Assembly: GCA_019683695.1 (NCBI GenBank)
Contig: JADGHX010000003.1
Coordinates: forward strand, 1-64,000
Reading direction: 5' to 3'
Length of the DNA: 64,000 nt
Origin: Steroidobacteraceae bacterium
GTDB lineage: Bacteria; Pseudomonadota; Gammaproteobacteria; Steroidobacterales; Steroidobacteraceae
Shown here one piece after another: positions 28,764 through 48,005 of the stretch (its first letter is position 1; every line of letters starts with the position of its first letter). The notes under the pieces are model-generated. The model did no database searches and was not told the origin of the DNA. It saw nothing but the letters and a program-made list of their open reading frames with translations. The translations under genes were made by a program, and so were the position numbers.

Positions 28764-30122
28764 CTACGGCGTCTGCGCGCGGTTGAGCGCTTCGGTGGTG
28801 GCGAGGTTCTCGCGGATGGTGCGCGCGCCCCAGAAATAGTGCGCGGCGGCCCACAGGTTCACGAGGCCGACGATGGTGAGACCCCAGCGCATGGAATCAT
28901 CCAGCCCCATGCTGGGCCTCAGCAGATCGCTCAGCATGCCGGCGACGTAGGGCCCGAGCCCCAGCCCCACGAAGGTCTGCACGAACAGCAGGATGGAGGT
29001 CGCCACCGCACGCGTGCGCAGCGTGGCGAGTGACTGGGACACGGCGAAGGACGGCCCGAAGAACATCGAAGCCAGCACCACCATCACCACGAACGACGGC
29101 ACGACGACCCGCAGATCGTCCGCGAGATACGAGCCGAACTGGAACGGCACCATGAGAACTGTGGCGATGCCCGGCACCCACATGTACCAGCGCCGGTCAT
29201 TGAAGCGCGCGCTCATGCGGTCCGAGAGCAGCCCGCCGAGCAGCGTGCCGAGCGTGCCCACGCCGGCGAACAGGGCGAGCCAGCTTCCGGCCTCGGCGGA
29301 CGTCATGTCGTGGGAGCGCTGGAAGAACACCGCGTTGAGCTGGCTGCCCGCATACCACACCACTGAGTGCAGCCCAGCCGCGAGACACATGTGGCGGAAC
29401 GACGGGTACTTCCAGAGGAACGCCAGCACCTCGAAGAGCGGCGGCGCAGGCGGCGTGACCACCGCCTTGCGGGGCTCGAGGTCCGACATGCCCCGGGGCG
29501 GCTCGCGGACGGTGAACCAGACGAGGAGCGCCACGATGATGCCGGGCACGCCGATCAGCACGAACGTCATGCGCCAGCCGAAGAGCTCATTGCCCCAGCC
29601 ACCGAGAAGGCTGCCGAGCATCGTGCCGACGGGCACCCCGAGCGCGTAGATGGACAGCGCCGTGGCCCGCCGCGAGTCGGGAAAGTAGTCCGAGATGAGC
29701 GAGTGCGACGGGGGCGTGCCACCTGCCTCACCCACGGCCGTCATCACACGCGCCAGGAACAGCGTGCCGAAGTTGATGGCAAGGCCCGCCGCGGCAGTCG
29801 CCCCGCTCCAGAGCGCGCAGCAACCGGCCAGCACGTTCTTGCGAACCGAGCGGTCCGCCAACGCGGCAATCGGAATGCCGAGCGTGGAATAGAACAGCGC
29901 GAACGGCAGCCCGCTCAGCAAACCGAGCTGGGCGTCGGTCAGCGTGAACTCCTTGCGGATGCTCTCGAGGAGCAGCGCAAGCACGCCGCGGTCCATCACG
30001 TTCACGACATACGTGAGGAACAGCGTGGCGAGGACGTAATTCCGATACAGGGGGGAACAGGCGCCGCGGACGACCGTAGCCGGCGCCGCGATCGCCCCGG
30101 AGTCTGCCTGGATATCTGCCAT
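28764..30122 (-). CDS. MFS transporter (Spinster-like group)
   Basis: The start is the ATG at 30122 (MADIQADSG), giving 452 residues and about twelve hydrophobic segments. The MFS signature between helices 2 and 3 is ALADRSVRKNVLAGC, and GEAGGTPPSHSLISDYF near residue 125 is characteristic of the Spinster-like and related anion-symporter group. It is an inner-membrane transporter, probably of an organic acid. It lies between an AraC-controlled catabolic operon and the divergent LysR/aconitase X cluster, so it could serve either. Confidence 0.9.
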   Translation of the reverse strand: MADIQADSGAIAAPATVVRGACSPLYRNYVLATLFLTYVVNVMDRGVLALLLESIRKEFTLTDAQLGLLSGLPFALFYSTLGIPIAALADRSVRKNVLAGCCALWSGATAAAGLAINFGTLFLARVMTAVGEAGGTPPSHSLISDYFPDSRRATALSIYALGVPVGTMLGSLLGGWGNELFGWRMTFVLIGVPGIIVALLVWFTVREPPRGMSDLEPRKAVVTPPAPPLFEVLAFLWKYPSFRHMCLAAGLHSVVWYAGSQLNAVFFQRSHDMTSAEAGSWLALFAGVGTLGTLLGGLLSDRMSARFNDRRWYMWVPGIATVLMVPFQFGSYLADDLRVVVPSFVVMVVLASMFFGPSFAVSQSLATLRTRAVATSILLFVQTFVGLGLGPYVAGMLSDLLRPSMGLDDSMRWGLTIVGLVNLWAAAHYFWGARTIRENLATTEALNRAQTP

Positions 30123-30515
30123 GTGGCGCCGTGCGCACTCGTCACGTGACCGCAAGGGGTCGCATCCTAAACGAAACGAGCGGCGGACGGGGCGTCGTGA
30201 CGAGGTCGCTTGCGCGCGGCCGGCCGGGATCCGGTGCCGGAAAGCCCTTGTACAAGTGGAGTGCGCAGCGCTGGCCCGCGTGGGACCGCTCCCACAAGCC
30301 TCCGCGCCATCACCGCCTGTCGCTCAGATACCGAAGCGCGAACACGCCCGGGCCCGGGAGTGGATTCGCCCAAAGTGGAATGGCGTTCTCCGCACCCGCC
30401 TCCTGCCGGCGCAGAACGGACGAGAGGTTGCACGCGCGGCCAAAAGACGGTAGCACGGCGCTGGCCTTTGCGGGCCTCGAGCGGCACGCGCGTGCCGCAC
30501 CGTCACCGACAACAC
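30123..30515. promoter_or_regulatory. 393-bp divergent regulatory region between MFS and LysR genes, with several palindromes
   Basis: No gene is recognisable here. A perfect 10-bp palindrome GTCACGTGAC lies at 30141-30150, about 19 bp upstream of the MFS start. A second, CTTGTACAAG, is at 30247-30256, and GTGGGA-CCGC-TCCCAC at 30280-30295 can form a hairpin. These are plausible operators for the adjacent LysR regulator or another factor, but I cannot assign them. Confidence 0.45.
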
Positions 30516-31415
30516 ATGAACACACTCCTCAACATCAAGTCCTTTCTGCTCGTCGCCAGGACGGGCAGCTTCTCCGGCGCCGCGCGCGAGCTCGGCGTGG
30601 CGCCCTCCGTGATCACCAAGCGCATCACGCGGCTCGAGGAAGAGATGGGCGCGCAGCTCTTCGTGCGCTCCACGCGCGCGCTGTCGCTCACACCCGCCGG
30701 CGAGCGCCTGCTGCCGCAGTATCAGCGGCTCGTCGCCGAGCTCGACGAGATCATCGGCGCGGCCGCGGCCGCCGAGCGCGGGCTCGAAGGGCATCTGCGC
30801 GTGAAGGGGCCGACGACGCTCACCTCCATGTACCTCGGCGCCATCTTCGCGGACTTCCATGCCCAGAACCCCGGGCTCACCATGGACATCGTGCTGCTCG
30901 ACCGGTCCGTGAATCCGCTGGAGGAGAACTTCGATCTGGTCGTGGGCGCATTGCCGGGAACGTATCCGGGCGTCGTGGACGTGCCGCTCTGCCCGCTCAC
31001 CATCGTGCTCTGCGCGTCACCGGCGTACCTCGATGCGAAGGGCGCACCCGAGCACCCCACGGAGCTGATCGAGCACGACTGCCTGACGTCCGTGCTGATG
31101 GGGAACACCTGGACGTTCGAGCAGCCGCCGAGCACCGTGAGCGTGGAGGTGCGCTCGAGGTTTCACGCGAACGACACGCGGGTGCTGCGGGAGGCCGCCC
31201 TGCGCGGCACGGGCATCGCCGTGCTGCCGAGCTTCCTCGTCTCGGAGGATCTGAAAAAGGGCACGCTCGTCGCGCTGCTGCCCTCGACGCCGATTCCCAC
31301 GTTCTGGCTCAAGGCGGTCGTGCCGCGAATCAAGCTCAACAAGCCCGGCGTGCAGGAGCTCGTGGACTTTCTGAAGTCCCGCATGCATCCCACGCCGCCG
31401 TGGCCGCTTTCGTGA
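30516..31415 (+). CDS. LysR family transcriptional regulator
   Basis: The real start is the ATG at 30516 (MNTLLNIKSFLLVARTGSFS), giving 299 residues. The N-terminal winged helix contains FSGAARELGVAPSVITKRITRLEEEMGAQLF, quoted in part, followed by a linker helix and a periplasmic-binding-like effector domain. It lies 95 bp upstream of the FAD oxidoreductase/aconitase X genes on the same strand and divergent from the MFS transporter, so it likely controls one or both. The effector is presumably the pathway's hydroxy acid. Confidence 0.92.
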   Translation: MNTLLNIKSFLLVARTGSFSGAARELGVAPSVITKRITRLEEEMGAQLFVRSTRALSLTPAGERLLPQYQRLVAELDEIIGAAAAAERGLEGHLRVKGPTTLTSMYLGAIFADFHAQNPGLTMDIVLLDRSVNPLEENFDLVVGALPGTYPGVVDVPLCPLTIVLCASPAYLDAKGAPEHPTELIEHDCLTSVLMGNTWTFEQPPSTVSVEVRSRFHANDTRVLREAALRGTGIAVLPSFLVSEDLKKGTLVALLPSTPIPTFWLKAVVPRIKLNKPGVQELVDFLKSRMHPTPPWPLS

Positions 31416-31510: not shown

Positions 31511-32806
31511 ATGTCGAGTGAAGTGATTCCGACCCGAACCGTGCGGCGCCCGCCGGCCCGCGCGACGCGTGTGGTGCAGGCGGATGTTTGCGTGCTCGGC
31601 GCCGGCATTTCCGGCGTGACCGCGGCGCTCGAGGCGGCAAAGCTCGGACGCAAGGTCGTGATCGTGGACGGCGCCCCTGCGCTCGGCGGCCAGGCGATCG
31701 GGTCGATCATCGGCACGCTCATCGGCCTGTACACGCACGGCCCGAATCCCTACCAGCTCACGCATGGCATCGCGGATGACCTGCTGCGCGACCTCGCCGC
31801 CGAAGGCTCGCTCCGGCGACTGCACCGCTCGACCGTCACGTTCCAGTACGACGAGGTTCGCCTGGCGCGCTGGATGGAGCGCAAGGTGGAGGAAGCCGGC
31901 GTGCAGACCCTGCTCGGCGCCGTGCTGACCGACGTCTCCTTCGCGAACCGCCGCGTGCAGTACCTGGACTTCGCCACGCGTTTCGGCGCGGTGCGCGTTC
32001 AGGCCACGGGCTACGTGGATGCCTCCGGCGACGCCACGCTCTGCTACGAAGCGGGACTCGAGGTGCGCGAGCCCGATGCGCCCATCTACGGGTCCATGAA
32101 CTTCCTGATCGAAGGCTACGATACCGAGACCGTCGCGCAGATGGATATCGTCGAGGTGCGCGAGCGCCTCGCACGCAAAGGTGCGGAGTACGGACTCGTG
32201 CGGCATGACGGCTGGCTGATGCACTTTCCCGGCCGCAATTTCATGCTCGCGAACATCACGCATTTCGAGACGCCGATCGATCCGCTCGCCACGGCACGAA
32301 TGGTGTTCGAGGGACGGCGGCAGGCCGATCGCACGCTGCGCTTCCTGCAGACGGAATATCCCCACATCTTCGCCAACGCGCGTGTGCGCGCGTACGGCAA
32401 CCCCGGGTTGCGGCAGACGAGATGGATCCAGAGCCGCCGGCCGCTCACGCTGGAGGACATCCGCGCCGGCACGCGCTTCGAAGACGCCGTCGCCCGCTGC
32501 GCCTGGTGGGTTGAGCTGCACAACACGGCGGAGCTCGTGCATTGGGAGCAGTTCAAGGACGGCCATGTGTACTACATCCCCCTGAGCTGCATGCTGCCCG
32601 CCGAAGCCGACAACATCGTTGCCGCCGGCCGGTGTGTGGATGCGGATTCGCACGCGCTCTCCGCCATCCGCGTCATGGGGCCATGTATCGCAATGGGAAC
32701 GGCGGCGGCCCACGCGCTGGACCTCGCCGGCGCCGGGTCACTGCACGCGGTGGATCTTGCGAGCCTGCAGAAGCGCTTGCGGGACAACCTGGACCGCACC
32801 GATTGA
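31511..32806 (+). CDS. FAD-dependent oxidoreductase (FAD_oxidored family)
   Basis: A 431-residue flavoprotein. The FAD-binding motif is DVCVLGAGISGVTAALEAAKLG, followed by a VIVDGAPALGGQAIGSIIG segment, and the C-terminus has IVAAGRCVDADSHALSAIRVMGPCIAMG, which closes the flavin site in this family. The exact reaction is not known for most members. It is 15 bp upstream of the aconitase X large subunit and under the same LysR gene. An inference is that it oxidises or reduces the substrate or product of the aconitase X dehydratase. Confidence 0.85.
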   Translation: MSSEVIPTRTVRRPPARATRVVQADVCVLGAGISGVTAALEAAKLGRKVVIVDGAPALGGQAIGSIIGTLIGLYTHGPNPYQLTHGIADDLLRDLAAEGSLRRLHRSTVTFQYDEVRLARWMERKVEEAGVQTLLGAVLTDVSFANRRVQYLDFATRFGAVRVQATGYVDASGDATLCYEAGLEVREPDAPIYGSMNFLIEGYDTETVAQMDIVEVRERLARKGAEYGLVRHDGWLMHFPGRNFMLANITHFETPIDPLATARMVFEGRRQADRTLRFLQTEYPHIFANARVRAYGNPGLRQTRWIQSRRPLTLEDIRAGTRFEDAVARCAWWVELHNTAELVHWEQFKDGHVYYIPLSCMLPAEADNIVAAGRCVDADSHALSAIRVMGPCIAMGTAAAHALDLAGAGSLHAVDLASLQKRLRDNLDRTD

Positions 32807-32821
32807 CGCCCGGAGCACCCC

Positions 32822-34108
32822 GTGAAGCTCGCTGACGACGAACTCGCCATGCTCGACGGTGCACGCGGGAAAGCGCACCAGAAGGCGATGGAGCTGCTCG
32901 TGAGGTATGCGGAAGCGCTCGGTGCCGAGCGCTTCGTGAACACGACGAATGTGGCCGGCGTGCCGGGCACGTCCAACCCCTTCCTGGAGCGCTACTTCAC
33001 GCAACCGGGAGACCGCTACAACGTCATCTACTCGCTGTTCGACCTGGACAGCGACGAAGTGGTGGAGATTCCGCGCATGACGGTGCACGCCTGTCACCTG
33101 CAGGGCGGCACCGATCCGGAGAACTGGCAGACGCTCGGCATGAAGCCCGAGCAGCTGCAGATCAGCCTCGCCGGCGAACGTGGCGCGGCGGAGCGCGACA
33201 TCCGCATCCTGAAAACCTGCACGCCTTACCTCGCAGGCAACGTGCCGAAGCGCGGCGAGCACTGTGCCTGGATGGAATCCTCCGCTGTGGTCTACTGCAA
33301 CTCGGTGCTCGGCGCGCGCACTAACACGGAAGGCCGCGAGAGCACGAGCGCCGCCATGATCACCGGCAAGATCCCGGACTTCGGCTTCCACCGGGACGAA
33401 TATCGATACGGCAGCCATCGCATCGAGGTGGAGGTGCCCGTCGAGAGTCTCATGGACTGGGGCATGCTCGGGTACTTCGTCGGCGAGGTCGTGGGCGAGC
33501 GCATTCCCGTGCTGACCGGCCGCTTCGCCCCGCCGGACCTCATCCACCACAAGCACTTCGGGGCCGCGGCGGCCTCCTCCGGCGGCGTGGAGATGTATCA
33601 CATGGTGGGCGTGACGCCTGAGGCGCCGACGCTCGAAGCGGCATTCGGGCCGAACCGCCCCGTCGAAACCTTCCGCTACGGCCCGGCCGAGCGGCGGCGC
33701 ACGTACGAAAACCTGAACGCGCGCGCGAGCGACCCGAACGTGGACTTCGTGATGCTCGGCTGCCCGCACGCGGCGCTCGAGCAGATCCGCGAGATCTGCC
33801 GTCTGCTCGACGGACGCAAAATCAGCCCGAGCGTGCGGCTCTGGGTGTTCACCTCGCGTGCCGTGCGTGCAGTGGCCGATCGCGAGGGTTACACGAAGAT
33901 CATTCGCGATGCCGGCGGCGTGCTGCTCACGGACACGTGTTCCGCCATCGGGCAGGCGCTTCCGCCGGGCACGAAGGTGGCCGCGCTCGATTCGGCGAAA
34001 CAGGTGCACTATCTGCCGGCGATCATGGGCATCGAAGCGTGGTTCGGCTCGACCGCGGATTGCATCAACGCCGCGCTCACCGGACGCTGGAACGGAGCAC
34101 TCTCATGA
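32822..34108 (+). CDS. aconitase X catalytic (large) subunit, DUF521
   Basis: A 428-residue protein with a GTG start at 32822 and GGAG upstream. It matches the aconitase X large domain: MKLADDELAMLDGARGKA at the N-terminus, NTTNVAGVPG, and cysteine-containing loops VMLGCPHAALEQI and LLTDTCSAIGQ that fit iron-sulfur ligation. Characterised members dehydrate cis-3-hydroxy-L-proline in bacteria or 5-phosphomevalonate in archaea. The usual hydroxyproline partner genes are not here, so the substrate is open. The small subunit follows with a four-base overlap. Confidence 0.92.
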   Translation: MKLADDELAMLDGARGKAHQKAMELLVRYAEALGAERFVNTTNVAGVPGTSNPFLERYFTQPGDRYNVIYSLFDLDSDEVVEIPRMTVHACHLQGGTDPENWQTLGMKPEQLQISLAGERGAAERDIRILKTCTPYLAGNVPKRGEHCAWMESSAVVYCNSVLGARTNTEGRESTSAAMITGKIPDFGFHRDEYRYGSHRIEVEVPVESLMDWGMLGYFVGEVVGERIPVLTGRFAPPDLIHHKHFGAAAASSGGVEMYHMVGVTPEAPTLEAAFGPNRPVETFRYGPAERRRTYENLNARASDPNVDFVMLGCPHAALEQIREICRLLDGRKISPSVRLWVFTSRAVRAVADREGYTKIIRDAGGVLLTDTCSAIGQALPPGTKVAALDSAKQVHYLPAIMGIEAWFGSTADCINAALTGRWNGALS

Positions 34109-36844: not shown

Positions 36845-38956
36845 TCACGCCGATGTGCGTTGTCGCTCCCGCTCCGCCTGCCACGACGCAAACGACGCCC
36901 CGCGCGTGGCAAGCTCCTGAAGCAGCGGCGCAGGCGTCCAGTACTGCGCACCCTGCTCTGCCTCGTACTTGTGAATGGCTTCGAGCACTTTCGGCAAGCC
37001 GACCGTATCCGCGTAGAACATCGGTCCGCCCCGCGTGCGCGGGAACCCGTAACCATTCACCCAGATCACGTCGATGTCGGCCGGTGAGGCCGCGATGCCC
37101 TCTTCCAGAATGCGTGCGCCCTCGTTCACGAGCGCGTAGAGGCAGCGCTCGAGAATTTCCGTGTCGCTGATCTCACGCTGCCGCACGTTCAGGCGCTGCG
37201 CTTCCGCGCGAATGAGCTCGGGCAGCTGCGGGTCCGGCTGACGCTCGCCGGTTGCGGTGTAGAGATAGAAGCCGCGGCCGGTCTTCTGGCCGTATCGGCC
37301 CAATTCGGCGAGCACATCCGACACGCGATAGTAGCGAGGGTCCCGCGGCGCGTTGTGCTGCTCGCGGCGAACGCGGTAACCCACGTCGAGGCCGGCAAGA
37401 TCGCCGACCGCATTCGGCCCCATGGCCATGCCCCATTCCTCGAGCACGCGGTCGATGCGCTCCGGTGCTGCGCCTTCGAGCATCATCAATTGATTCTCGC
37501 GGCCGTAGGCGTACAGCATGCGATTGCCCACGAAGCCGAAGCAGTTGCCCACCACCACCCCGATCTTCCCGAGGCGGCGCGCAACGGCCAGCGCCGTGGC
37601 CAGCGTCTCCGGCGCCGTGGCCCGCGCCCGCACGATCTCCACCAGCCGCATCACATTCGCCGGGCTGAAGAAGTGCATGCCCAGAACATCCTGCGGGCGC
37701 CGGGTGACACTCGCGATTCGCTCGACATCGAGCGTCGAGGTGTTGGTCGCGAGCACGGTGCCGGGATCGCAAACGGCATCCAGTTTCCGGAAAACGTCCT
37801 GCTTGATCGCGAGGTTTTCGTACACCGCTTCGATGACGAGCTGCGAGCCCGCCACGGCAGCCAGGTCCGTGGAGACACGCACGCGCGCGCGGGCCTCGCT
37901 TGCCGCAGCGGGCGCGAGCCGGCCTTTCTTCACGGCGCTGTCCAGCGACGACTGCAGACGAGCGACACCCGCCTCGAGCGCCTTGGGTTCGAGGTCCACG
38001 AGCGTGACCTCCAGCCCGCTCGTGACGCAGCTCGTTGCGATGCCCGAGCCCATCGTCCCCGCGCCGAGCACCGCAACGCGCTGCACCTTGCGCGCGGCAG
38101 CGCCCGAGCCCTCACGCGAGCCGCGCTCTGCGAAGAACAGATGCCGTAGCGCGGCGGACTGCGAAGACTTGCGGCATTCCTCGAACAGCTCCCGCGAGCG
38201 AACGAGAGCGCTGTCGAACGGCAGCGTTGCCGCCGCCTGCATGGCCTGAATGATGCGTTCGACGGCTTCGAGCCGGCGTGCCGAACGCGAGAGCCCCTTG
38301 CGGTACGCGGCGAAGAACGCGTCATTCGCCGCGTCTGCGTCCGGAAATGGCAGATCGGATACGCGCCGCGGAGAAGCGCCTGATGCGATCAACTCCTGCG
38401 CGTAGCTCAGCGCTTGCTCGACAACATCCCCCTCGCCGAGCGCACGGTCGATGAGCCCGAGAGCGCACGCGCGTTCAAATGCGACGGGCTCACCCGACGT
38501 GATGAGGTCCAGCGCGCCCTTCGCTCCGATCAGCCTCGGCAAGCGCACCACGCCGCCCGCACCGGGCAGCAGGCCGAGCTTCACTTCCGGCAAGCCGATC
38601 TGAACGTCCGGTGTGGCGCATCGATAATGACTCGCCAGCGCGGTTTCGAATCCGCCCCCGAGCGTGTGGCCGTGGAGCGCTGCGATGACGGGCTTGCGGC
38701 ACGCTTCGAGCCGCGACAACAGAACATAGAGGTAGGGCTCGCGGTGCGGCTGATCCATCTCGCGAATGTCCGCCCCCGCGATGAAATTGCGGCCCGCGCC
38801 GTGCAGCACGATGGCCTCGACCGCGGCGTCTTCGTCCGCTTCGACAATGGCGTGCCAGAGCCCCTCGCGCACCGGCTGCGAGAGCGCGTTCACGGGTGGA
38901 TTGTCGATGATGATCAGCGCGAGGGCGCCACGCTTTTCCAGTCTGACGGGACTCAT
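36845..38956 (-). CDS. enoyl-CoA hydratase / 3-hydroxyacyl-CoA dehydrogenase fusion (FadB/FadJ-like, paa-associated)
   Basis: A 703-residue multifunctional protein. The crotonase half has GRNFIAGADIREM and HTLGGGFETALASHYR with GLPEVKLGLLPGAGG. The dehydrogenase half starts near residue 300 with VAVLGAGTMGSGIATSC and has the catalytic histidine in VLGMHFFSPANVM. It sits between paaG and paaZ, where E. coli uses separate PaaF and PaaH, so it probably performs those two steps in turning dehydroadipyl-CoA to 3-oxoadipyl-CoA. The thiolase PaaJ and ligase PaaK are not in this window. Confidence 0.9.
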   Translation of the reverse strand: MSPVRLEKRGALALIIIDNPPVNALSQPVREGLWHAIVEADEDAAVEAIVLHGAGRNFIAGADIREMDQPHREPYLYVLLSRLEACRKPVIAALHGHTLGGGFETALASHYRCATPDVQIGLPEVKLGLLPGAGGVVRLPRLIGAKGALDLITSGEPVAFERACALGLIDRALGEGDVVEQALSYAQELIASGASPRRVSDLPFPDADAANDAFFAAYRKGLSRSARRLEAVERIIQAMQAAATLPFDSALVRSRELFEECRKSSQSAALRHLFFAERGSREGSGAAARKVQRVAVLGAGTMGSGIATSCVTSGLEVTLVDLEPKALEAGVARLQSSLDSAVKKGRLAPAAASEARARVRVSTDLAAVAGSQLVIEAVYENLAIKQDVFRKLDAVCDPGTVLATNTSTLDVERIASVTRRPQDVLGMHFFSPANVMRLVEIVRARATAPETLATALAVARRLGKIGVVVGNCFGFVGNRMLYAYGRENQLMMLEGAAPERIDRVLEEWGMAMGPNAVGDLAGLDVGYRVRREQHNAPRDPRYYRVSDVLAELGRYGQKTGRGFYLYTATGERQPDPQLPELIRAEAQRLNVRQREISDTEILERCLYALVNEGARILEEGIAASPADIDVIWVNGYGFPRTRGGPMFYADTVGLPKVLEAIHKYEAEQGAQYWTPAPLLQELATRGASFASWQAERERQRTSA

Positions 38957-38971
38957 CGGGCGACCCGCTCG

Positions 38972-39763
38972 TCAGCGTCCCGTGAAACGGGGCGCGCGCT
39001 TTTCCGTGAACGCCGTGACGCCCTCCGCGTAATCCGCAGAGAACCCGAGCTCCCGCTGCATGTCGCGCTCCACATCGAGCTGTTGCTCGAGCGAGCGGCC
39101 GCCGGAGCTGTAGATGGCTTCCTTCGTGCGCGCAAGCCCGCGCGTCGGTGCCGCGGCGAGTTGCTGGGCGAGCCGATCCACGAAGGGCTGAAACTCCGCA
39201 TCCTCCACACAGCGCCAGATGAGGCCCCACTGTTCCGCCTGCTCCGCGCTGAGCTTTTCGCCGAGAAGCGCAAGGCCCAGCGCGCGCGCATAACCCACGA
39301 GCCGCGGCAGGCTCCAGGTGCCTCCGGAATCCGGCACGAGCCCGAGCTTCGCGAAGGACTGAACGAAGCTCGCCGAGCGCGCGGCAATCACCAGGTCGCA
39401 CGCGAGCGCGATGTTCGCCCCGGCGCCGGCGGCCACGCCGTTCACCGCCGCGATGACCGGCTTGGGCAGGCCACGCAACGCGAGCACGAGAGGCTTGTAG
39501 TACTGCTCGATGGAGAGCCCGAGGTCCGTCGCCGCACCACCGGGCGCCACGGTGCGATCTCCCAGATCCTGCCCTGCGCAGAAGCCGCGGCCGGCACCGG
39601 TGATGACCAGCACCCGGCACTCGATGTCTGCCTTCACCTGGCGCAACACCTCGCGCACTTCCTCGTGCATCTTCACGTTGAAGCTGTTGAGGCGCTCGGG
39701 GCGATTGAGCGTCAGTCTCGCGATGCCGCCACTCTGCTCGAACAGGATGCATTCGTACGACAT
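38972..39763 (-). CDS. paaG: 1,2-epoxyphenylacetyl-CoA isomerase
   Basis: The start is the ATG at 39763 (MSYECILFEQSGG), giving 263 residues as in E. coli PaaG. Crotonase features are present: ITGAGRGFCAGQDLGDRT with the oxyanion-hole region, NGVAAGAGANIALACDLV, and GLVPDSGGTWSLPRLVG with the catalytic aspartate. It converts ring-1,2-epoxyphenylacetyl-CoA to the oxepin. It begins 2 bp after the paaE stop and ends 15 bp before the FadB-like fusion. Confidence 0.95.
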   Translation of the reverse strand: MSYECILFEQSGGIARLTLNRPERLNSFNVKMHEEVREVLRQVKADIECRVLVITGAGRGFCAGQDLGDRTVAPGGAATDLGLSIEQYYKPLVLALRGLPKPVIAAVNGVAAGAGANIALACDLVIAARSASFVQSFAKLGLVPDSGGTWSLPRLVGYARALGLALLGEKLSAEQAEQWGLIWRCVEDAEFQPFVDRLAQQLAAAPTRGLARTKEAIYSSGGRSLEQQLDVERDMQRELGFSADYAEGVTAFTEKRAPRFTGR

Positions 39764-39765
39764 GG

Positions 39766-40533
39766 CTAGGTCTCGTCGTAGTTCAGCTCGATCTCCGGCG
39801 TGCGGGCGCGGGACTGGCAGGCGAGGATGAAGCCCTGCTCCAGCTCCCAGTCCTCCAGCGCGTAGTTCTCCGCCATGTCCACTTCGCCGCGCACGAGCTT
39901 CGTGCGGCACGTGGAGCACACGCCGGCCTTGCAGGAGAACGGCAGCTCGATGCCCGCGCGCGCGGCCGCGTCCAGGATGGACTCGAAGCCCGTGCGCATG
40001 GTGAAGGATCGGCGCCGGCCGTCCATCACGAACTCGACCCGTGTTTCATTGGCCGAGGGCGCCGCGCTCGCGGGTGCTGTGGGCTGAGGTGCCGCGCGCG
40101 GCGGCGGAACAGTGTCACCGGCTGCGTCCCCTGCTCTTCGAACACGCGACGGATCCACGCCCAACGCCGCAAGCTCACGGGTGACATCAGCGACGAGTTG
40201 CTCGGGGCCGCAGACGTAGTAGTCGTTAACCGCGCGTGCATCGAAAAGCCGCGTTGCGATGTCACGCGCCTTGGCCGCATCCAGCGTCCCGGACAGCAGC
40301 TCGGCTTCGCCGGGCTCGCGGTCCATGACGAAGCCGAGAGACAGGCGGTGCAGATGCACGTCCTTCAGTGCGAGCAGCTCTTCGAGCGGTTCCGCATGCT
40401 CGCCCTCCTGCGCGCCACAGAACGCGAGCACGCGCGTGCCCCCGTCTTCCGCGAGCAGACGCTTCACGAGGGTAACCGCCGGGACGATGCCGGCGTCCAC
40501 GGCGAAAACTACGCAACTGTCGGTCAGATGCAT
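39766..40533 (-). CDS. paaE: phenylacetyl-CoA epoxygenase reductase, N-terminally truncated (no FAD-binding domain)
   Basis: The ATG at 40533 overlaps the paaD stop by ten bases and gives only 255 residues; PaaE is normally about 355. The protein opens directly in the NAD-binding domain (VVFAVDAGIVPAVTLVKRLL, where the family has a GSGITP loop) and continues with DYYVCGPEQLVADV. The C-terminal 2Fe-2S ferredoxin domain is complete, with ELPFSCKAGVCSTCRTKLV and ILACQSR supplying four cysteines. The whole FR-type FAD domain of about 110 residues is absent. The track's longer ORF in this frame is only paaD read out of frame. Either a real deletion removed it or the assembly lost about 330 bp. Confidence 0.88.
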   Translation of the reverse strand: MHLTDSCVVFAVDAGIVPAVTLVKRLLAEDGGTRVLAFCGAQEGEHAEPLEELLALKDVHLHRLSLGFVMDREPGEAELLSGTLDAAKARDIATRLFDARAVNDYYVCGPEQLVADVTRELAALGVDPSRVRRAGDAAGDTVPPPRAAPQPTAPASAAPSANETRVEFVMDGRRRSFTMRTGFESILDAAARAGIELPFSCKAGVCSTCRTKLVRGEVDMAENYALEDWELEQGFILACQSRARTPEIELNYDET

Positions 40534-41051
40534 TTGAAGTAGTCGAACGGTTCGAGGCAGCTGGTGCAGCGGTAGTGCGCCTTGCACGGCGTGGAACCGA
40601 AGTCGCTCACGCGCTCGGTCTCGCGGCTTCCGCACCGGGGACATGCCACGGTCACGGCGCCAAACAGGCGGCGCACCGTGCTCACCGCTTCCGCGGGGGG
40701 TGCGATGCCGAAGGCGCGCAACTTGCGCCGGCCTTCCGGCGTGAGCCAGTCGCTGCTCCACGCCGGGGAAAGAACTGTGTCCACGACGGAATCCGGATAA
40801 CCCGCACGCACCAGAGCACGCTCGACAGACGCCTGGATCACCTCCGTCGCGGGGCATCCGGAGTACGTGGGGGACAGCCCTACATGCAGCCGGCCGTCCG
40901 CTTCCCAACGCACGTGTCGCACGATGCCCAGATCGACGATGTTCAGCACGGGAATTTCCGGGTCCCGCACGCCTTCGAGCACGCGCCATACCTCTGCTAC
41001 GGAGCTCGGGCGCTCCTCCGCGATGGGCTCCTGCACGTCTGCGCTCACCAT
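40524..41051 (-). CDS. paaD: phenylacetate epoxygenase assembly protein PaaD
   Basis: From the ATG at 41051 (MVSADVQEPIAEE) the product has 175 residues; a GTG one codon later would give a GTGA overlap with paaC and is equally possible. The N-terminal DUF59/MIP18 domain has VRDPEIPVLNIVDLGIVR and SPTYSGCPATEVI, and the C-terminal zinc-ribbon-like part has ACPRCGSRETE and RCTSCLEPFDYFKCI. PaaD is thought to help mature the iron sites of the epoxygenase. Full length, so the deletion affecting paaE begins only after its stop. Confidence 0.94.
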   Translation of the reverse strand: MVSADVQEPIAEERPSSVAEVWRVLEGVRDPEIPVLNIVDLGIVRHVRWEADGRLHVGLSPTYSGCPATEVIQASVERALVRAGYPDSVVDTVLSPAWSSDWLTPEGRRKLRAFGIAPPAEAVSTVRRLFGAVTVACPRCGSRETERVSDFGSTPCKAHYRCTSCLEPFDYFKCI

Positions 41052-41794
41052 GAAGCCCCCGGATAGGCGCGATGCAGGAACTGCATCTCTGCGAGCAGAT
41101 ACCCGAGGTGCTCGGTGTGCTGGCCGCGCTTGCCGTGCCATACGTAGGGCACATCCGCAGGGCGCTGCAGAGTGGCTTCCTTCAGAACCTCATCGATATG
41201 CGCAGACCAGCGAAGCTCCAAGTCCGCAAGCTGCGGCGCGACGCCCGCGCTCGCCATTTCGCGATCGACATCGTCCTCCGCGAACAGCTCGCGCGTGAAG
41301 CGCCACAACGAGTCCAGCGAGCCCTGCACGCGCCGGTGGCTCTCCTCCGTGCCGTCGCCGAGCCGGATGAGCCAGCCCGCGCTGTAGCGGAAGTGATAGC
41401 GCGTTTCCTTCAGCGCCTTGTGCGCGATCTCCGCAAGCCGCGCGTCCGTTGAGCGCTGCAGGCCTTCGTACAGCTCGAGCTGGAACGCATCGATCAATAC
41501 CTGGCGAACGATGGTGTGGCCGAAGTCCCCGTTCGGCTGCTCGGCCAGTGCCAGATTGCGGTAGTCGGACTGATCGCGGGACATCGCCAGATCGTCCTCG
41601 TTGCGCCCGCGACCCTCGATCTCGCCGGCATATGTGAGGAGCAGCCGCGCCTGCCCGATGAGGTCGAGCGAAAGGTTCGCGAGCCCCAGGTCCTCCTCCA
41701 GCGCCGGCGCGTGCCCGATCCACTCGCCGAGCCGCTGGCCCAGCACGAGGCTCGTGTCGGCCAGCCGCAGCACGTATTCGAGTCGCGCGCTCAC
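41045..41794 (-). CDS. paaC: phenylacetyl-CoA epoxygenase structural subunit PaaC
   Basis: A 249-residue ferritin-like subunit with a GTG start that overlaps the paaB stop as GTGA. Typical stretches are LVLGQRLGEWIGHAPALEEDL, DQSDYRNLALAEQPNGDF and KALKETRYHFRYSAGWLIRLGDGTEES. PaaC pairs with the catalytic PaaA and lacks a functional di-iron site in characterised members. It lies in the invariant paaABCDE order. Confidence 0.96.
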   Translation of the reverse strand: MSARLEYVLRLADTSLVLGQRLGEWIGHAPALEEDLGLANLSLDLIGQARLLLTYAGEIEGRGRNEDDLAMSRDQSDYRNLALAEQPNGDFGHTIVRQVLIDAFQLELYEGLQRSTDARLAEIAHKALKETRYHFRYSAGWLIRLGDGTEESHRRVQGSLDSLWRFTRELFAEDDVDREMASAGVAPQLADLELRWSAHIDEVLKEATLQRPADVPYVWHGKRGQHTEHLGYLLAEMQFLHRAYPGASW

Positions 41795-42084
41795 AGGTTC
41801 TTCACCTCGTCCGGAATCGAATAGAACGTCGGATGGCGATACACCTTGTCCCGCGCGGGCTCGAAGAACGCATCGGCCTCGGCAGGATCCGACGCGGTGA
41901 TGTCGCTCGAACGCACGACCCAGATGCTCACGCCTTCCTGCCGCCGCGTGTACACATCCCGCGCGTGCTCGATGGCCATGCGGGCATCCGCCGCGTGCAC
42001 GCTGCCCACGTGCTTGTGCTCGAGCCCCGAGCGGGAGCGCACGAAGACTTCAAACAGCGGCCACTCTTTCTCGTTCACGTGCAT
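41791..42084 (-). CDS. paaB: phenylacetyl-CoA epoxygenase subunit PaaB
   Basis: A 97-residue protein of normal PaaB size. It contains WPLFEVFVRSRSGLEHKHVGS and NARDVYTRRQEG-like sequence (here HARDVYTRRQEGVSIWVVRS). PaaB bridges PaaAC heterodimers in the epoxygenase complex. It lies 31 bp after paaA and overlaps paaC by four bases. Confidence 0.96.
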   Translation of the reverse strand: MHVNEKEWPLFEVFVRSRSGLEHKHVGSVHAADARMAIEHARDVYTRRQEGVSIWVVRSSDITASDPAEADAFFEPARDKVYRHPTFYSIPDEVKNL

Positions 42085-42115: not shown

Positions 42116-43114
42116 TCACGCCGCCTGCGCGGCGCGCTGGCGCTGCTTCTCGGCATGCGCGAGCGCTGCCTCGCGAACCCAGCGACCCTGCTCGTACGCA
42201 CGGCGGCGCGCTTCGAGCCGCTCGCGATTGCAGGGACCGTTCCCCTTCAGCACCTGCTGAAATTCCGCCCAGTCGATGGGCCCGAACACGTAATGCTGAC
42301 TGGCCTCATCCCAGCGCAGGTGCGGGTCCGGAATCTCGAGGCCCAGGAACCTGGCCTGCGGCACGGTGATATCCACGAACTGCTGGCGCAGCTCATCGTT
42401 CGTGAAACGCTTGATCTTCCAGCGCATGGACTGCGCCGTGTGCCGGGATTCCGCATCGCTCGGGCCGAACATCATGAGCGCCGGCCACCACCAGCGGTTC
42501 AGCGCATCCTGCGCCATGCGGCGCTGCTCGGGCGTGCCGCGCGCCAGCGTCATCATGATCTCGAAGCCCTGCCGCTGGTGGAAACTTTCCTCACGGCAGA
42601 TGCGCACCATCGCCCGCGCATACGGGCCGTACGAGCAGCGGCAGATCGGAATCTGGTTCATGATGGCCGCGCCATCCACGAGCCACCCGATCGCCCCGAC
42701 ATCCGCCCACGTGGGCGTGGGATAGTTGAAGATGCTCGAATACTTCGCCGCGCCCGACAGCAGCTGCGCCATCATCTGATCGCGCGAGATGCCGAGCGTT
42801 TCCGCGGCGCTGTAGAGATACATGCCGTGACCGCCTTCGTCCTGCACCTTCGCGATGAGCACGGCCTTGCGGCGAAGCGTGGGCGCGCGGGTGATCCAGT
42901 TCCCCTCCGGCAGCATGCCCACCACTTCCGAATGCGCGTGCTGGGAGATCTGGCGGATCAGCGTCTGGCGGTAGCCCTCCGGCATCCAGTCCTTGGGTTC
43001 GATCTTCTCGTCCGCATCCACCCGCGCCTGAAAACGCGCTTCGAGCGCGGCCGTGTCCGGCGAGCTGGCGTGAAGCGCTTCCCTGCCGGGTGAATCGAGC
43101 CCCTGCGTGTACAT
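42116..43114 (-). CDS. paaA: phenylacetyl-CoA 1,2-epoxidase catalytic subunit PaaA
   Basis: The start is the ATG at 43114 ([10 protein letters not shown]), giving 332 residues. Di-iron carboxylate motifs are present ([20 protein letters not shown] and [17 protein letters not shown]), together with the signature [15 protein letters not shown]. It inserts one oxygen atom into the ring of phenylacetyl-CoA using electrons from PaaE. It is the first gene of the paaABCDEG-fadB-paaZ unit and divergent from paaX. Confidence 0.97.
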
Positions 43115-43153: not shown

Positions 43154-43218
43154 GCGCGCACCGCGCCACCGCTTCGGAATCGGTGCGCGCAATGTGACAC
43201 ACAAACGCGTCCGTCACA
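43154..43218. promoter_or_regulatory. two inverted repeats in the paaA-paaX divergent promoter
   Basis: The 130-bp region between paaA and paaX holds a perfect 10-bp inverted repeat GCGCGCACCG-N17-CGGTGCGCGC (43154-43190) and, next to it, TGTGAC-N14-GTCACA (43193-43218). The spacing suits a dimeric repressor. PaaX is known to repress both its own gene and the paa operon from this kind of divergent region and is released by phenylacetyl-CoA. Which repeat it binds is not known. Confidence 0.55.
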
Positions 43219-43244
43219 ACTTTTTCTGTGTCAGAATCCGCCGC

Positions 43245-44228
43245 ATGCCAGACCGCCTTGCCAAGGCCACGCACGCCCTCGTGGCCCGCTTCCAGCGCCA
43301 GCGGCCCGTGCGCGCCGGTTCCCTGCTCATCACCATCTTTGGCGACACCGTGGCGCCGCGCGGCGGGGTCGTCACCCTCGGCAGCCTCATTCAGCTCGCC
43401 CGGCCCTTCGGCATCACGGAACGCCTCGTGCGCACGTCCGTCGGCCGCCTCGCGCAGGAAGGGTGGCTCGATTTCCGGCGCAGCGGCCGTCAGAGCGAGT
43501 ACTTCCTGACTGCCCAGGGCCGCAGCCGCTTTGCTGAAGCGACGCAACGCATTTACAGCGAGGCCCCGGACTCGTGGGATGGCGCGTGGACGCTGATTCT
43601 TCTCTCCGCCGGAAAGAACGCTCGGCTTCCCAGCCGCCGCTCGCGCTCGCCGGGCACTGCGCACAGCTCCCGCCAGAATGCGCGGGACGAGTTGCGCTGG
43701 CTCGGGTTCGGTCAACTCAGCACGGGTGTACTCGCGCACCCCAGTCGCAGCGTCGAGGACACGCGCGATCAACTTGCGGCCCTGCGCCTGGACGGCGGCG
43801 CCGTCGTCCTGCAAGCGCGCACTGGCAGCGCTGAAGCCGACCGCGCACTGCTCGAATCCGGCTGGGATCTCGCCGAGCTCTCTCGCGGGTACTCGCGCTT
43901 CGTCGCCAGCTTCGAGCCGGTGGCCACCGTGCTCCGGGGGCGCGCAAGGCCCGCGCCCGATCAGGCCTTCATCATCCGCACGCTGCTGATCCACGAGTAC
44001 CGCAAGATTCACCTGCGGGATCCGCTGCTTCCCCGATCCTTGCTCCCGGCCGAGTGGATCGGAAGCCGTGCATACCAGCTCTGTCGCGATCTGTATCGCG
44101 AAGTGTTCGCGCCCGCCGAAGAGCACGTCACCAGCACCGCTTCCACGCTGGAAGGCACCCTCCCCGCGCCGTCCGCGGAGACCTACCGGCGCTTCGGGGG
44201 ACTGGAGAGGCCCTCGGGCGCACGCTGA
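43245..44228 (+). CDS. paaX: phenylacetic acid degradation repressor PaaX
   Basis: From the ATG at 43245 (MPDRLAKATHALV) the protein has 327 residues. The N-terminal winged-helix region contains RAGSLLITIFGDTVAPRGG and GITERLVRTSVGRLAQEGWL, both PaaX signatures, and the C-terminal PaaX domain contains FIIRTLLIHEYRKIHLRDPLLP. It senses phenylacetyl-CoA and controls the divergent paa operon. Compared with other PaaX it carries a Ser/Arg-rich stretch (LPSRRSRSPGTAHSSRQ) in the central part, likely a surface loop. Confidence 0.95.
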   Translation: MPDRLAKATHALVARFQRQRPVRAGSLLITIFGDTVAPRGGVVTLGSLIQLARPFGITERLVRTSVGRLAQEGWLDFRRSGRQSEYFLTAQGRSRFAEATQRIYSEAPDSWDGAWTLILLSAGKNARLPSRRSRSPGTAHSSRQNARDELRWLGFGQLSTGVLAHPSRSVEDTRDQLAALRLDGGAVVLQARTGSAEADRALLESGWDLAELSRGYSRFVASFEPVATVLRGRARPAPDQAFIIRTLLIHEYRKIHLRDPLLPRSLLPAEWIGSRAYQLCRDLYREVFAPAEEHVTSTASTLEGTLPAPSAETYRRFGGLERPSGAR

Positions 44229-44276
44229 GCGCGGGTACACTTTCCGCCCTTGGCAGTTTTGAGGCGGAGAGCACAC

Positions 44277-47200
44277 TTGGCGGGCTGGCAGTTCTGGATC
44301 GATCGCGGGGGCACGTTCACGGACGTGATCGCCCGCCGGCCTGACGGTGCGCTCATCACGCACAAGCTTCTCTCGGAGAATCCGCAGCGCTACGCGGACG
44401 CCGCGCTTCAGGGCATCCGCGACCTCATGGGGCTTCAGCCCGGGGAGCCCGTGCCGGGCCATCTCATCGATGCGGTGAAAATGGGCACCACGGTCGCCAC
44501 CAATGCACTGCTCGAGCGCAAGGGGGACCGCACGCTGCTCGCCATCACGCGGGGCTTTGCGGACGCTCTGCGCATCGGGGATCAGAAGCGGCCGCGCATC
44601 TTCGACCGGCACATCGTGCTTCCCTCCCAGCTCTACGAGCGTGTCATCGAAATCGATGAGCGGGTGACTGCACGGGGCAGCGTGCTTCAGCCGCTCGATG
44701 AATCCGCGACACGACAGGCGCTTCGGGCGGCCTTCGATGACGGCATCCATTCCGTCGCCATCGTCCTGATGCATGGCTATCGATATCCGGAGCATGAGCA
44801 GCGGGTCGCCGCGATCGCACGCGAGATCGGCTTCCGGCGCGTCTCCACGAGCCACGAGACCAGCCGGCTCATGAAGCTCGTCGGGCGCGGCGACACGACA
44901 GTGGTCGACGCGTATGTGTCACCTCTCCTGCGTCGCTATGTTGATTCGGTGCGCGCCGCACTCGGGAACAACGTGCGTCTGTCCTTCATGCAGTCGAATG
45001 GCGGGCTCGCGTCCGCGAGCACGTTTCAGGGCAAGGACGCGATTCTCTCCGGGCCGGCGGGCGGAATCGTCGGCATGGCGAAAGTCGCCGCCGCGGCGAG
45101 GTTCGATCGCGTGATCGGCTTCGACATGGGCGGCACCTCGACCGACGTATCGCATTACGCAGGCGTGTACGAGCGCACGTTCGAGAGTGTCGTCGCGGGC
45201 GTGCGTCTGCGTGCGCCCATGATGAGCATCCACACCGTTGCCGCAGGCGGCGGCTCGATCTGCCGCTTCGATGGCGCCCGCTTCCGCGTGGGACCGGAGT
45301 CCGCGGGCGCGGATCCGGGCCCCGCCTGCTACCGCCGCAACGGCCCGCTCACGATCACGGACTGCAACGTGATGCTCGGGAAGCTCCAGCCCGCGTTCTT
45401 CCCCGCCGTGTTCGGCCCGGGCGGCGATGAGCCCCTCGATGCGCAGATCGTGGAGCGGAAATTCGCCGCGCTCGCCGAGGAAGTGGCGCGCGCCACGGGC
45501 ATCCAGCGCGAGCCGCGCGAGATCGCGCACGGGTTCCTCGCGATCGCGGTCGACAACGTCGCCAACGCGATCAAGCAGATCTCGATTGCGCGGGGGTACG
45601 ACGTCACCGCATACACGCTCGTCTGCTTCGGTGGCGCGGGCGGCCAGCATGCCTGCCTTGTCGCGGACGCACTCGGAATGAAGCGCGTGCTGATCCATCC
45701 GCTTGCAGGCGTTCTCTCCGCTTATGGCATCGGCCTCGCTGAGCAGCGCTTGCTCCGGCAGCGCGCCGTGGAATCGAGGCTCTCGGAAGAATCGATGCCC
45801 GTGCTGAATCGAACGCTGAAAGAGCTGGAGAGTGAAGCGCGCTCGCAGCTCGCGTCCGATGAGCAAGGGGTGCTCGCGAGCGATTCGGCCTTGGCAGAGT
45901 CGTCCGTGCGCATCGAGCGTCGCCTGCACGTGAAGTATCAAGGCACGGACACCGCCATCGAGCTGCCTCACGGCACGCTCGAGGAAATCCGGCGAGCGTT
46001 CGAAGCGGCCTATCTGCAGCGCTTCACGTTCACGATGCCGGATACGCCGCTGGTGGTGGAGTCCGTTGCGGTAGAGCTCATCGTGACGCCGCCCGAGAAC
46101 CTTGCCGCCCCGGCATCGGCCTACGCGAAAGGTCAGTCGGTACCTACTCGCGTTCCCGTCGCGAACGCGCAAGCAAATCAACGCTCCGCGCCAAGCGACA
46201 CCACACCCTCGAGCGCGCCCCCGGCGGCGATCGCCCGCGTGAATACCTTCATGGCTGGCAGAGCACACGATACGCCGGTGTTCGATCGCGCATGCCTGCA
46301 ACCTGGCGCACGTGTGCACGGCCCTGCAATCCTTTACGAAAGCACCTCCACGACCGTGGTTGAGCCCGGCTGGATCGCGACCGTCACCGCCCGAGGGGAC
46401 CTCATCCTCGAACGCACCGAGCCACTGGCGCAGCGAACGGCTATCGGCACCCAGGCAGATCCTGTCCAGCTCGAGATCTTCAACAACCTGTTCATGTCCA
46501 TCGCGGAGCAGATGGGCGTGGCGCTCCAGAGCACCGCGTACTCCGTGAACATCAAGGAACGGCTGGACTTCTCGTGCGCGCTGTTCGACGCCCACGGCGC
46601 GCTCGTCGCGAACGCGCCGCACATGCCGGTGCACCTGGGCTCCATGGGCGAGAGTGTGCGATCGATCATCGCCGCCCGCGGCGCAGGCCGGGATGGCCGG
46701 GGCATCTTGCGCGGCGACGTGTACGCGCTGAACAACCCGTACAACGGCGGCACGCATCTGCCGGACGTCACGGTCGTGATGCCGGTGTTCGCAAGCGACT
46801 CGGACACGGTGATGTTCTACGTCGCCGCTCGTGGCCATCATGCCGACATCGGCGGCGTGACACCGGGCTCCATGCCACCGGACAGCACGACGCTCGACGA
46901 AGAAGGCGTGCTGATCGACAACTTCCTGCTCGTGGAGCGTGGCACGTTTCGCGAGGAAGCCTTCCGGCGCCTGCTCACGTCGGGGCGATACCCTGTGCGC
47001 AACGTTGAGCAGAATATCGGCGACATCAAGGCACAAGTGGCGGCATGCGCGCGCGGAGCGCACGAGTTGCAACGGGTGGTGGGCGAGTATGGGCAGGATG
47101 TGGTGCTTGCCTACATGCACCATGTGCGCGAAAACGCGGCCGAATCCGTCCGGCGCATGCTCGATCGGCTCGAGAGCGGCGAGTTCACGTGCGAGTCCGA

Positions 47201-48005
47201 CGACGGGTCCGTCATCGCGGTGTCGATCCGCGTGAACGCCCGCGAGCGCCGCGCGCGCATCGACTTCACGGGCACAAGTCCTCAACAGGCGACGAACTTC
47301 AACGCGCCCTCCTCCATCACGCGCGCGGCCGTGCTCTACGTGATGCGCACACTCGTCGATGACGCGATTCCGATGAACGAAGGGTGTCTCGAGCCGATCG
47401 ACCTCGTGATCCCGCAGGGCTCGCTCCTCGCGCCGCGCCCACCCGCCGCGGTGGTGGCGGGCAACGTCGAGACGAGCCAGCTGCTCACGGACGCGCTGTT
47501 CGGCGCCACGGGCCGGCTCGCCGCCGCCCAGGGCACGATGAACAACTTCACGTTCGGGAACGAGGTCTGCCAGTACTACGAGACGGTGTGTGGCGGCTCC
47601 GGCGCAGGTCCGGGCTTCGACGGCACGGATGCCGTCCAGACGCACATGACGAACAGCCGGCTCACCGACCCCGAGGTGCTCGAATGGCGCTTCCCCGTGC
47701 TCGTCGAGGCCTTCGCCATCCGCCGAGGCTCCGGCGGACAGGGACGCTGGCGCGGGGGCGATGGCGTGATCCGGCGCATCCGTTTCCTCGAGCCCATGAC
47801 CGCGGCCATTCTCTCGAATCGCAGGCGCGTGGCGCCGTTCGGCCTCAAGGGCGGCTCACCCGCCGCGCCGGGAAAGAACTACGTGATCCGCGCGGATGGC
47901 ACACGCATCGACCTGCCCGCCAGAGCCTCCGTGCACATGCAGCCCGGCGACACGTTCGTGATCGAGACGCCGGGCGGCGGCGGGTACGGCTCGCCATCGG
48001 GTTGA
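44277..48005 (+). CDS. fused hydantoinase A/B protein, probable 5-oxoprolinase
   Basis: About 1242 residues. The track uses a TTG at 44250; I prefer the TTG at 44277 because GGAGA lies 6-7 nt upstream and the protein then begins [19 protein letters not shown], as in other 5-oxoprolinases. Hydantoinase A domains follow ([33 protein letters not shown]), then a low-complexity linker near residues 620-665, then hydantoinase B ([33 protein letters not shown]). The fused form usually hydrolyses 5-oxo-L-proline to glutamate with ATP. Hydantoins or related lactams are alternatives. It follows paaX by 48 bp; a TACACT box at 44236-44241 may be its own promoter. Confidence 0.88.

Follow-up and report, generated by a model that had tools for sequence, protein, structure and literature searches.

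The window, i.e., the whole 64,000-nucleotide stretch analysed here, lies on an 87.7 kb contig (C201) of the draft genome G000 of a Steroidobacteraceae bacterium (312 contigs, 5.18 Mb, 97.65% complete). It carries the genes for 1,2-phenylacetyl-CoA epoxidase in a minus-strand series running in the order paaA, paaB, paaC, paaD, paaE, paaG, a fused hydratase/dehydrogenase gene and paaZ, with paaX divergent. The di-iron catalytic subunit PaaA (42116–43114, exact start uncertain; TIGR02156, 534 bits) is followed by PaaB (41791–42084; TIGR02157, 148.5 bits), PaaC (41045–41794; TIGR02158, 304 bits) and PaaD (40524–41045; TIGR02159, 187.8 bits), while the isomerase PaaG (38972–39763; TIGR02280, 407 bits) is encoded next downstream of paaE, and the repressor PaaX (TIGR02277, 276.2 bits) on the plus strand at 43194–44228. 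The matches of PaaB, PaaC, PaaD, PaaG and PaaX exceeded the model cut-offs; by profile matches, all parts of the rest of the epoxidase operon were present, as the earlier note on this DNA had stated. The fused enoyl-CoA hydratase/3-hydroxyacyl-CoA dehydrogenase of 703 aa (36845–38956, minus strand), located between paaG and paaZ, gave sub-cut-off matches to FadB/FadJ-type models, while the PaaH model covered its dehydrogenase part only.

Elsewhere in the window, a single 1251-aa frame (44250–48005, plus strand) matched the models of caprolactamase alpha in its N-terminal and beta in its C-terminal part, both below the cut-offs, and by its sequence resembles a fusion enzyme of the hydantoinase/oxoprolinase type. 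An AcnX (aconitase X) protein (32822–34108, plus strand) adjoins an FAD-dependent oxidoreductase (31511–32806), with a LysR regulator (30210–31415) and an MFS transporter (28764–30155, minus strand) nearby; together, these four genes possibly form a small catabolic cluster.

The paaE position between paaD and paaG is occupied by one open frame (39766–40533, minus strand; stop codon at 39766–39768) encoding a protein of 255 aa (P0001). It has paaABCD directly upstream, as expected of a PaaE, and its relatives stand at the same operon position. In the literature, PaaE is described as an NADPH-FAD-2Fe-2S reductase. The window protein aligned with the PaaE profile (TIGR02160) by its residues 6–253, covering only positions 111–352 of 352, and scored 195.8 bits, below the curated cut-off of 420.8 bits. 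Pfam recognised NAD_binding_1 (27.5 bits, passing the cut-off) and Fer2 (65.1 bits) in it, and no match to FAD_binding_6 was present either in the protein or in the adjoining DNA read in six frames, which confirmed the absence of the FAD domain claimed previously. The putative start codon, before the NAD domain the sole ATG available, lies 10 bases inside paaD, and PaaD itself ends normally (...FDYFKCI followed by the stop codon), both in accordance with the earlier note. The usual spacing in most full-length relatives is different: their paaE starts a few bases after the paaD stop. In one such relative (L006), the stop is followed by a 4-base gap and then by 339 bp up to the codon aligned with window codon 8. 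The distance from the paaD stop to the NAD-domain codon is 11 bases in the window against about 343 in L006; therefore, about 332 bp, i.e., the whole FAD domain, are missing from the window, which agrees with the approximately 330 bp estimated before. A second PaaE, which had been suggested as worth looking for, was absent when all 312 contigs of G000 (97.65% complete) were searched in six frames, and so was a free PaaE-type FAD domain, FAD_binding_6 occurring there only in two other reductases on contigs C195 and C281.

What remained of the protein comprised three segments: the remnant of an NAD(P)-binding Rossmann domain whose motifs are eroded (residues 1–138; 40120–40533), an Ala/Pro-rich linker predicted with low confidence (residues 139–162; 40048–40119; pLDDT about 57–77) and a plant-type [2Fe-2S] ferredoxin domain (residues 163–255; 39769–40047) retaining all four cluster cysteines (C201, C206, C209 and C239). 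AlphaFold run on the family alignment returned the same arrangement, with a Rossmann-like N-terminal domain, the linker at about 139–162 and the ferredoxin domain, at a mean pLDDT of 90; this prediction is a consistency check only because the input alignment holds intact relatives. In Foldseek comparisons with plant-type [2Fe-2S] ferredoxins, the target-normalised TM-scores were mostly 0.76–0.87. The window PaaE is a [2Fe-2S] protein without a flavin domain, whose Rossmann remnant still passes the Pfam cut-off.

The same architecture was found in two other genera of the family. A PaaE without the FAD domain is encoded in frame at the same operon position in genomes G010 (L008:979–1788, 269 aa) and G004 (L009:1408–2166, 252 aa, containing a gap of two N bases), in both cases starting just after paaD with only about 20 residues ahead of the NAD domain. 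The junctions differ among the three genomes, and the assemblies are separate. Full-length PaaE was the rule among the 217 family genomes searched, 100 of which had a PaaE match at E≤1e-20; 30 family matches, and in addition the fragments, were inspected in sequence, while for the rest the order search, in which they matched the profile over its full length, was relied on. The fragmentary matches that were retrieved run into contig ends. Outside the family, sampling of the order (396 genomes, part of the low-scoring matches being read base by base) and of the class (369 genomes, judged by open-frame length) revealed no evident FAD-less PaaE. The lower-scoring order matches that were looked up were either fragments extending to a contig end or hits on other proteins. 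Similarly, apparent split paaE genes, with ferredoxin-only matches in relatives such as G099, G115 and G112, were rejected, as they run into contig ends. Judged by the sequences of three draft genomes, the FAD-less PaaE is a genuine, recurrent and lineage-restricted form rather than something peculiar to a single genome. In the PaaE tree, the window protein and that of G004 were sisters (100/97) with G010 apart, and a single clade of the three was not rejected (p = 0.35). The tree of concatenated PaaC, PaaD and PaaG likewise paired the window genome with G004 (94/93) and placed G010 in another group (98/92), one clade again not being rejected (p = 0.10). From these trees, either one or two losses of the FAD domain are possible.

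The decay of the three FAD-less proteins was confined to the NAD domain. Near-invariant columns were defined as those shared by at least 90% of 56 full-length or partly full-length relatives with the NAD and ferredoxin regions aligned. In the NAD domain, 9 of the 23 such columns were changed in the window, 8 in G010 and 12 in G004, with a maximum of 3 in any of the 56 relatives, while the ferredoxin domain had 0, 0 and 1 changes out of 24 in the three FAD-less proteins, with the four cluster cysteines kept (Fisher p about 5e-10, calculated from pooled cells that are not independent of one another). The GSGITP loop was replaced by DAGIVP in the window, as had been noticed before, and by GDHLDA and GADLAA in the other two; its G, G, T and P were kept in 56 out of 56 full-length relatives. 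Of the E-x-F motif that closes the NAD domain, both residues were lost in the window and in G004 and the F in G010, and the CGP motif was kept in the window and lost in G004. The profile scores followed the same trend: two full-length relatives scored 47–49 bits with NAD_binding_1, but the window protein only 27.5 and that of G010 14.8, with no match in G004, and yet Fer2 was steady at 65 bits. In mean identity to full-length family members, the NAD domains of the FAD-less proteins reached 36–46% as compared to 48–61% in seven full-length proteins, while their ferredoxin domains, at 66–68%, were within the 57–71% range of the same seven. This pattern matches the expectation that the NAD site becomes purposeless once no FAD is present to accept the hydride.

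The FAD-less paaE genes and their neighbours appear to be still under constraint. The paaE frames were open in G000, G010 and G004, and the G+C content of the window paaE by codon position (72.7/48.8/82.0) was like that of its neighbours. The end branches of the FAD-less genomes in the PaaC+PaaD+PaaG tree were 0.19, 0.20 and 0.35 long, the median being 0.17; only the G004 branch (0.35) was about twice the median, and the three proteins do not appear clearly accelerated. PaaA matched the E. coli PaaA structures with 504 bits over 304 residues. A dead epoxidase would be expected to bring relaxation of PaaA, PaaC, PaaD and PaaG, so that the near-ordinary branches together with the conserved PaaA argue for an epoxidase in use. 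Despite their epoxidase operons, neither G000 nor G010 gave a match to the phenylacetate-CoA ligase PaaK (TIGR02155) at E≤1e-50; G004 possesses a PaaK above the TIGR02155 cut-off.

A search for a reductase that might feed the truncated protein covered the FAD_binding_6 and Reductase_C types; among these, no partner specific to the FAD-less genomes was found. Contig C201 has no FAD_binding_6 reductase, and the operon is without a reductase gene. Free FAD_binding_6 domains were absent from G000, G004 and G010, which had complete reductases only. Just one FAD_binding_6 protein was shared by all three genomes, a ferredoxin-FAD-NAD reductase, located on contig C281 in G000, whose best NCBIfam match was BenC, below the model cut-off. 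However, this type is present in 118 of the 217 family genomes, many of them with intact PaaE, and is therefore a candidate only and not evidence. In G000 and G021 its gene adjoins a frame whose translation reads like diaminopimelate epimerase. The second FAD_binding_6 protein of G000, an FAD-NAD reductase without a ferredoxin domain (G000:C195:9872–10561, L109), is complementary in make-up to the truncated PaaE. It was rejected as a common partner, having no counterpart by FAD_binding_6 in G004 or G010. A CamA/ThcD-type ferredoxin reductase (Reductase_C) was likewise rejected, being absent in G010; in G000, the sole Reductase_C match was weak and lay in a Rieske-fused protein. The missing PaaK matches also drew attention to an indolepyruvate-type ferredoxin oxidoreductase (DUF6537) as a source of electrons and substrate; since G000 and G010 lack it, it was rejected as a common source.

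Taken together, the FAD domain is absent, its absence recurs in three genera, the decay affects the NAD domain only, and the ferredoxin domain and the examined epoxidase proteins are preserved. We consider it probable (at roughly 0.7, on comparative sequence grounds) that the FAD-less PaaE acts as a [2Fe-2S] ferredoxin subunit of phenylacetyl-CoA epoxidase that retains a vestigial Rossmann domain and receives its electrons from a separate reductase. The essential role reported for PaaE in the epoxidase (PMC4498308) also counts in favour of this reading; against it count the small number of genomes, three drafts in all, the operon without a partner reductase, the absence of a FAD_binding_6 or Reductase_C partner specific to the FAD-less genomes and the long G004 branch in the operon tree. 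According to this scheme, the FAD domain would have been lost by an in-frame deletion, after which selection for NAD(P)H binding would have ceased. A separate NAD(P)H-dependent flavoprotein would then reduce the PaaE cluster, the cluster would hand the electrons to the di-iron centre of PaaA, and the Rossmann remnant may be kept as a structural or docking module. The earlier note had left the choice between electrons from another reductase and a disabling deletion: the former is the better supported, and neither a recent disabling deletion nor an assembly error accounts for the same loss in two more genera, the decay restricted to the NAD domain and the near-ordinary branches of the neighbours.

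A disabling deletion would imply that both PaaE and the epoxidase are dead and that the operon is in early decay. It would fit the essential role of PaaE for the epoxidase reported for the species studied (PMC4498308), as well as the missing PaaK matches in G000 and G010. Such early decay is nevertheless unlikely, since three genera share this state, each with an open frame and the ferredoxin domain intact, PaaC, PaaD and PaaG show no clear acceleration and G004 has PaaK. An error of assembly or binning, which the earlier note had named as the finding that would overturn its claim, might have removed about 330 bp from the G000 draft, and all three genomes are indeed drafts; but two separately assembled genomes with different junctions and open frames have the same architecture, and an assembly deletion cannot change the remaining NAD-domain residues, which makes such an error scarcely credible.

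The truncated PaaE might also be only an assembly aid, with a complete reductase, for example the BenC-like one on C281, feeding PaaA directly. That reductase has its own 2Fe-2S domain and is the only FAD_binding_6 protein shared by the three genomes; a purely structural role, however, would not need a perfectly preserved ferredoxin domain, and given the wide occurrence of the C281 type, also in many genomes with intact PaaE, we regard this arrangement as improbable. Finally, the NAD domain might still bind NAD(P)H and work with a flavin or an FAD domain in trans, as the predicted Rossmann-like fold, the CGP motif kept in the window and the NAD_binding_1 match above the cut-off would permit. 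Against this stand the lack of a free FAD_binding_6 domain in any of the three genomes, the altered GSGITP loop and damaged E-x-F in all three proteins and the unrecognised NAD domain of G004, so that such a rescue seems very unlikely.

The preferred reading, a PaaE turned ferredoxin, can be placed among known systems. With PaaE proper (TIGR02160, the class IA reductase of 1,2-phenylacetyl-CoA epoxidase), the window protein shares the operon position, the homologous NAD and C-terminal 2Fe-2S regions and its best profile match; it differs by the missing FAD domain, the eroded NAD-site motifs and the score (195.8 vs 420.8 bits). Phthalate dioxygenase reductase (2PIA) is named as the structural homologue of PaaE in PMC4498308. 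With the window PaaE as query, phmmer found the C-terminal ferredoxin region of 2PIA. In contrast to the window protein, 2PIA is an intact flavin-containing reductase. Plant-type [2Fe-2S] ferredoxins match the C-terminal 93 residues both in sequence and in predicted fold, but in the window this domain is fused behind a degenerate Rossmann domain within a paa operon. If a separate reductase reduces the window PaaE, the chain would resemble that of three-component oxygenases, composed of a reductase, a separate ferredoxin and an oxygenase. In the latter, the ferredoxin stands alone and is usually encoded together with its reductase, whereas here it would be a decayed reductase in an operon without a reductase gene. 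No published description of a FAD-less or truncated PaaE was found in the open-licence literature, represented mostly by titles and abstracts.

The epoxidase and the ferredoxin domain are familiar, and the change is limited to the electron-entry module. More tentatively, at somewhat less than even odds, a three-component phenylacetyl-CoA epoxidase may have evolved, perhaps on two occasions, when the two-component enzyme lost its flavin domain by deletion; this would have turned the reductase subunit into a dedicated ferredoxin and left the dead Rossmann domain as a module on which the epoxidase or a cellular reductase docks. In practical terms, annotation will call a reductase where there is probably none. 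The locus offers a clean natural example of domains being lost in steps, with the flavin domain gone, the NAD domain decaying and the cluster domain intact, and it makes the identity of the reductase feeding the epoxidase a directly testable question. The recurrence of a form lacking the flavin domain and the NADPH-binding signatures suggests that the epoxidase can be wired to another source of electrons.
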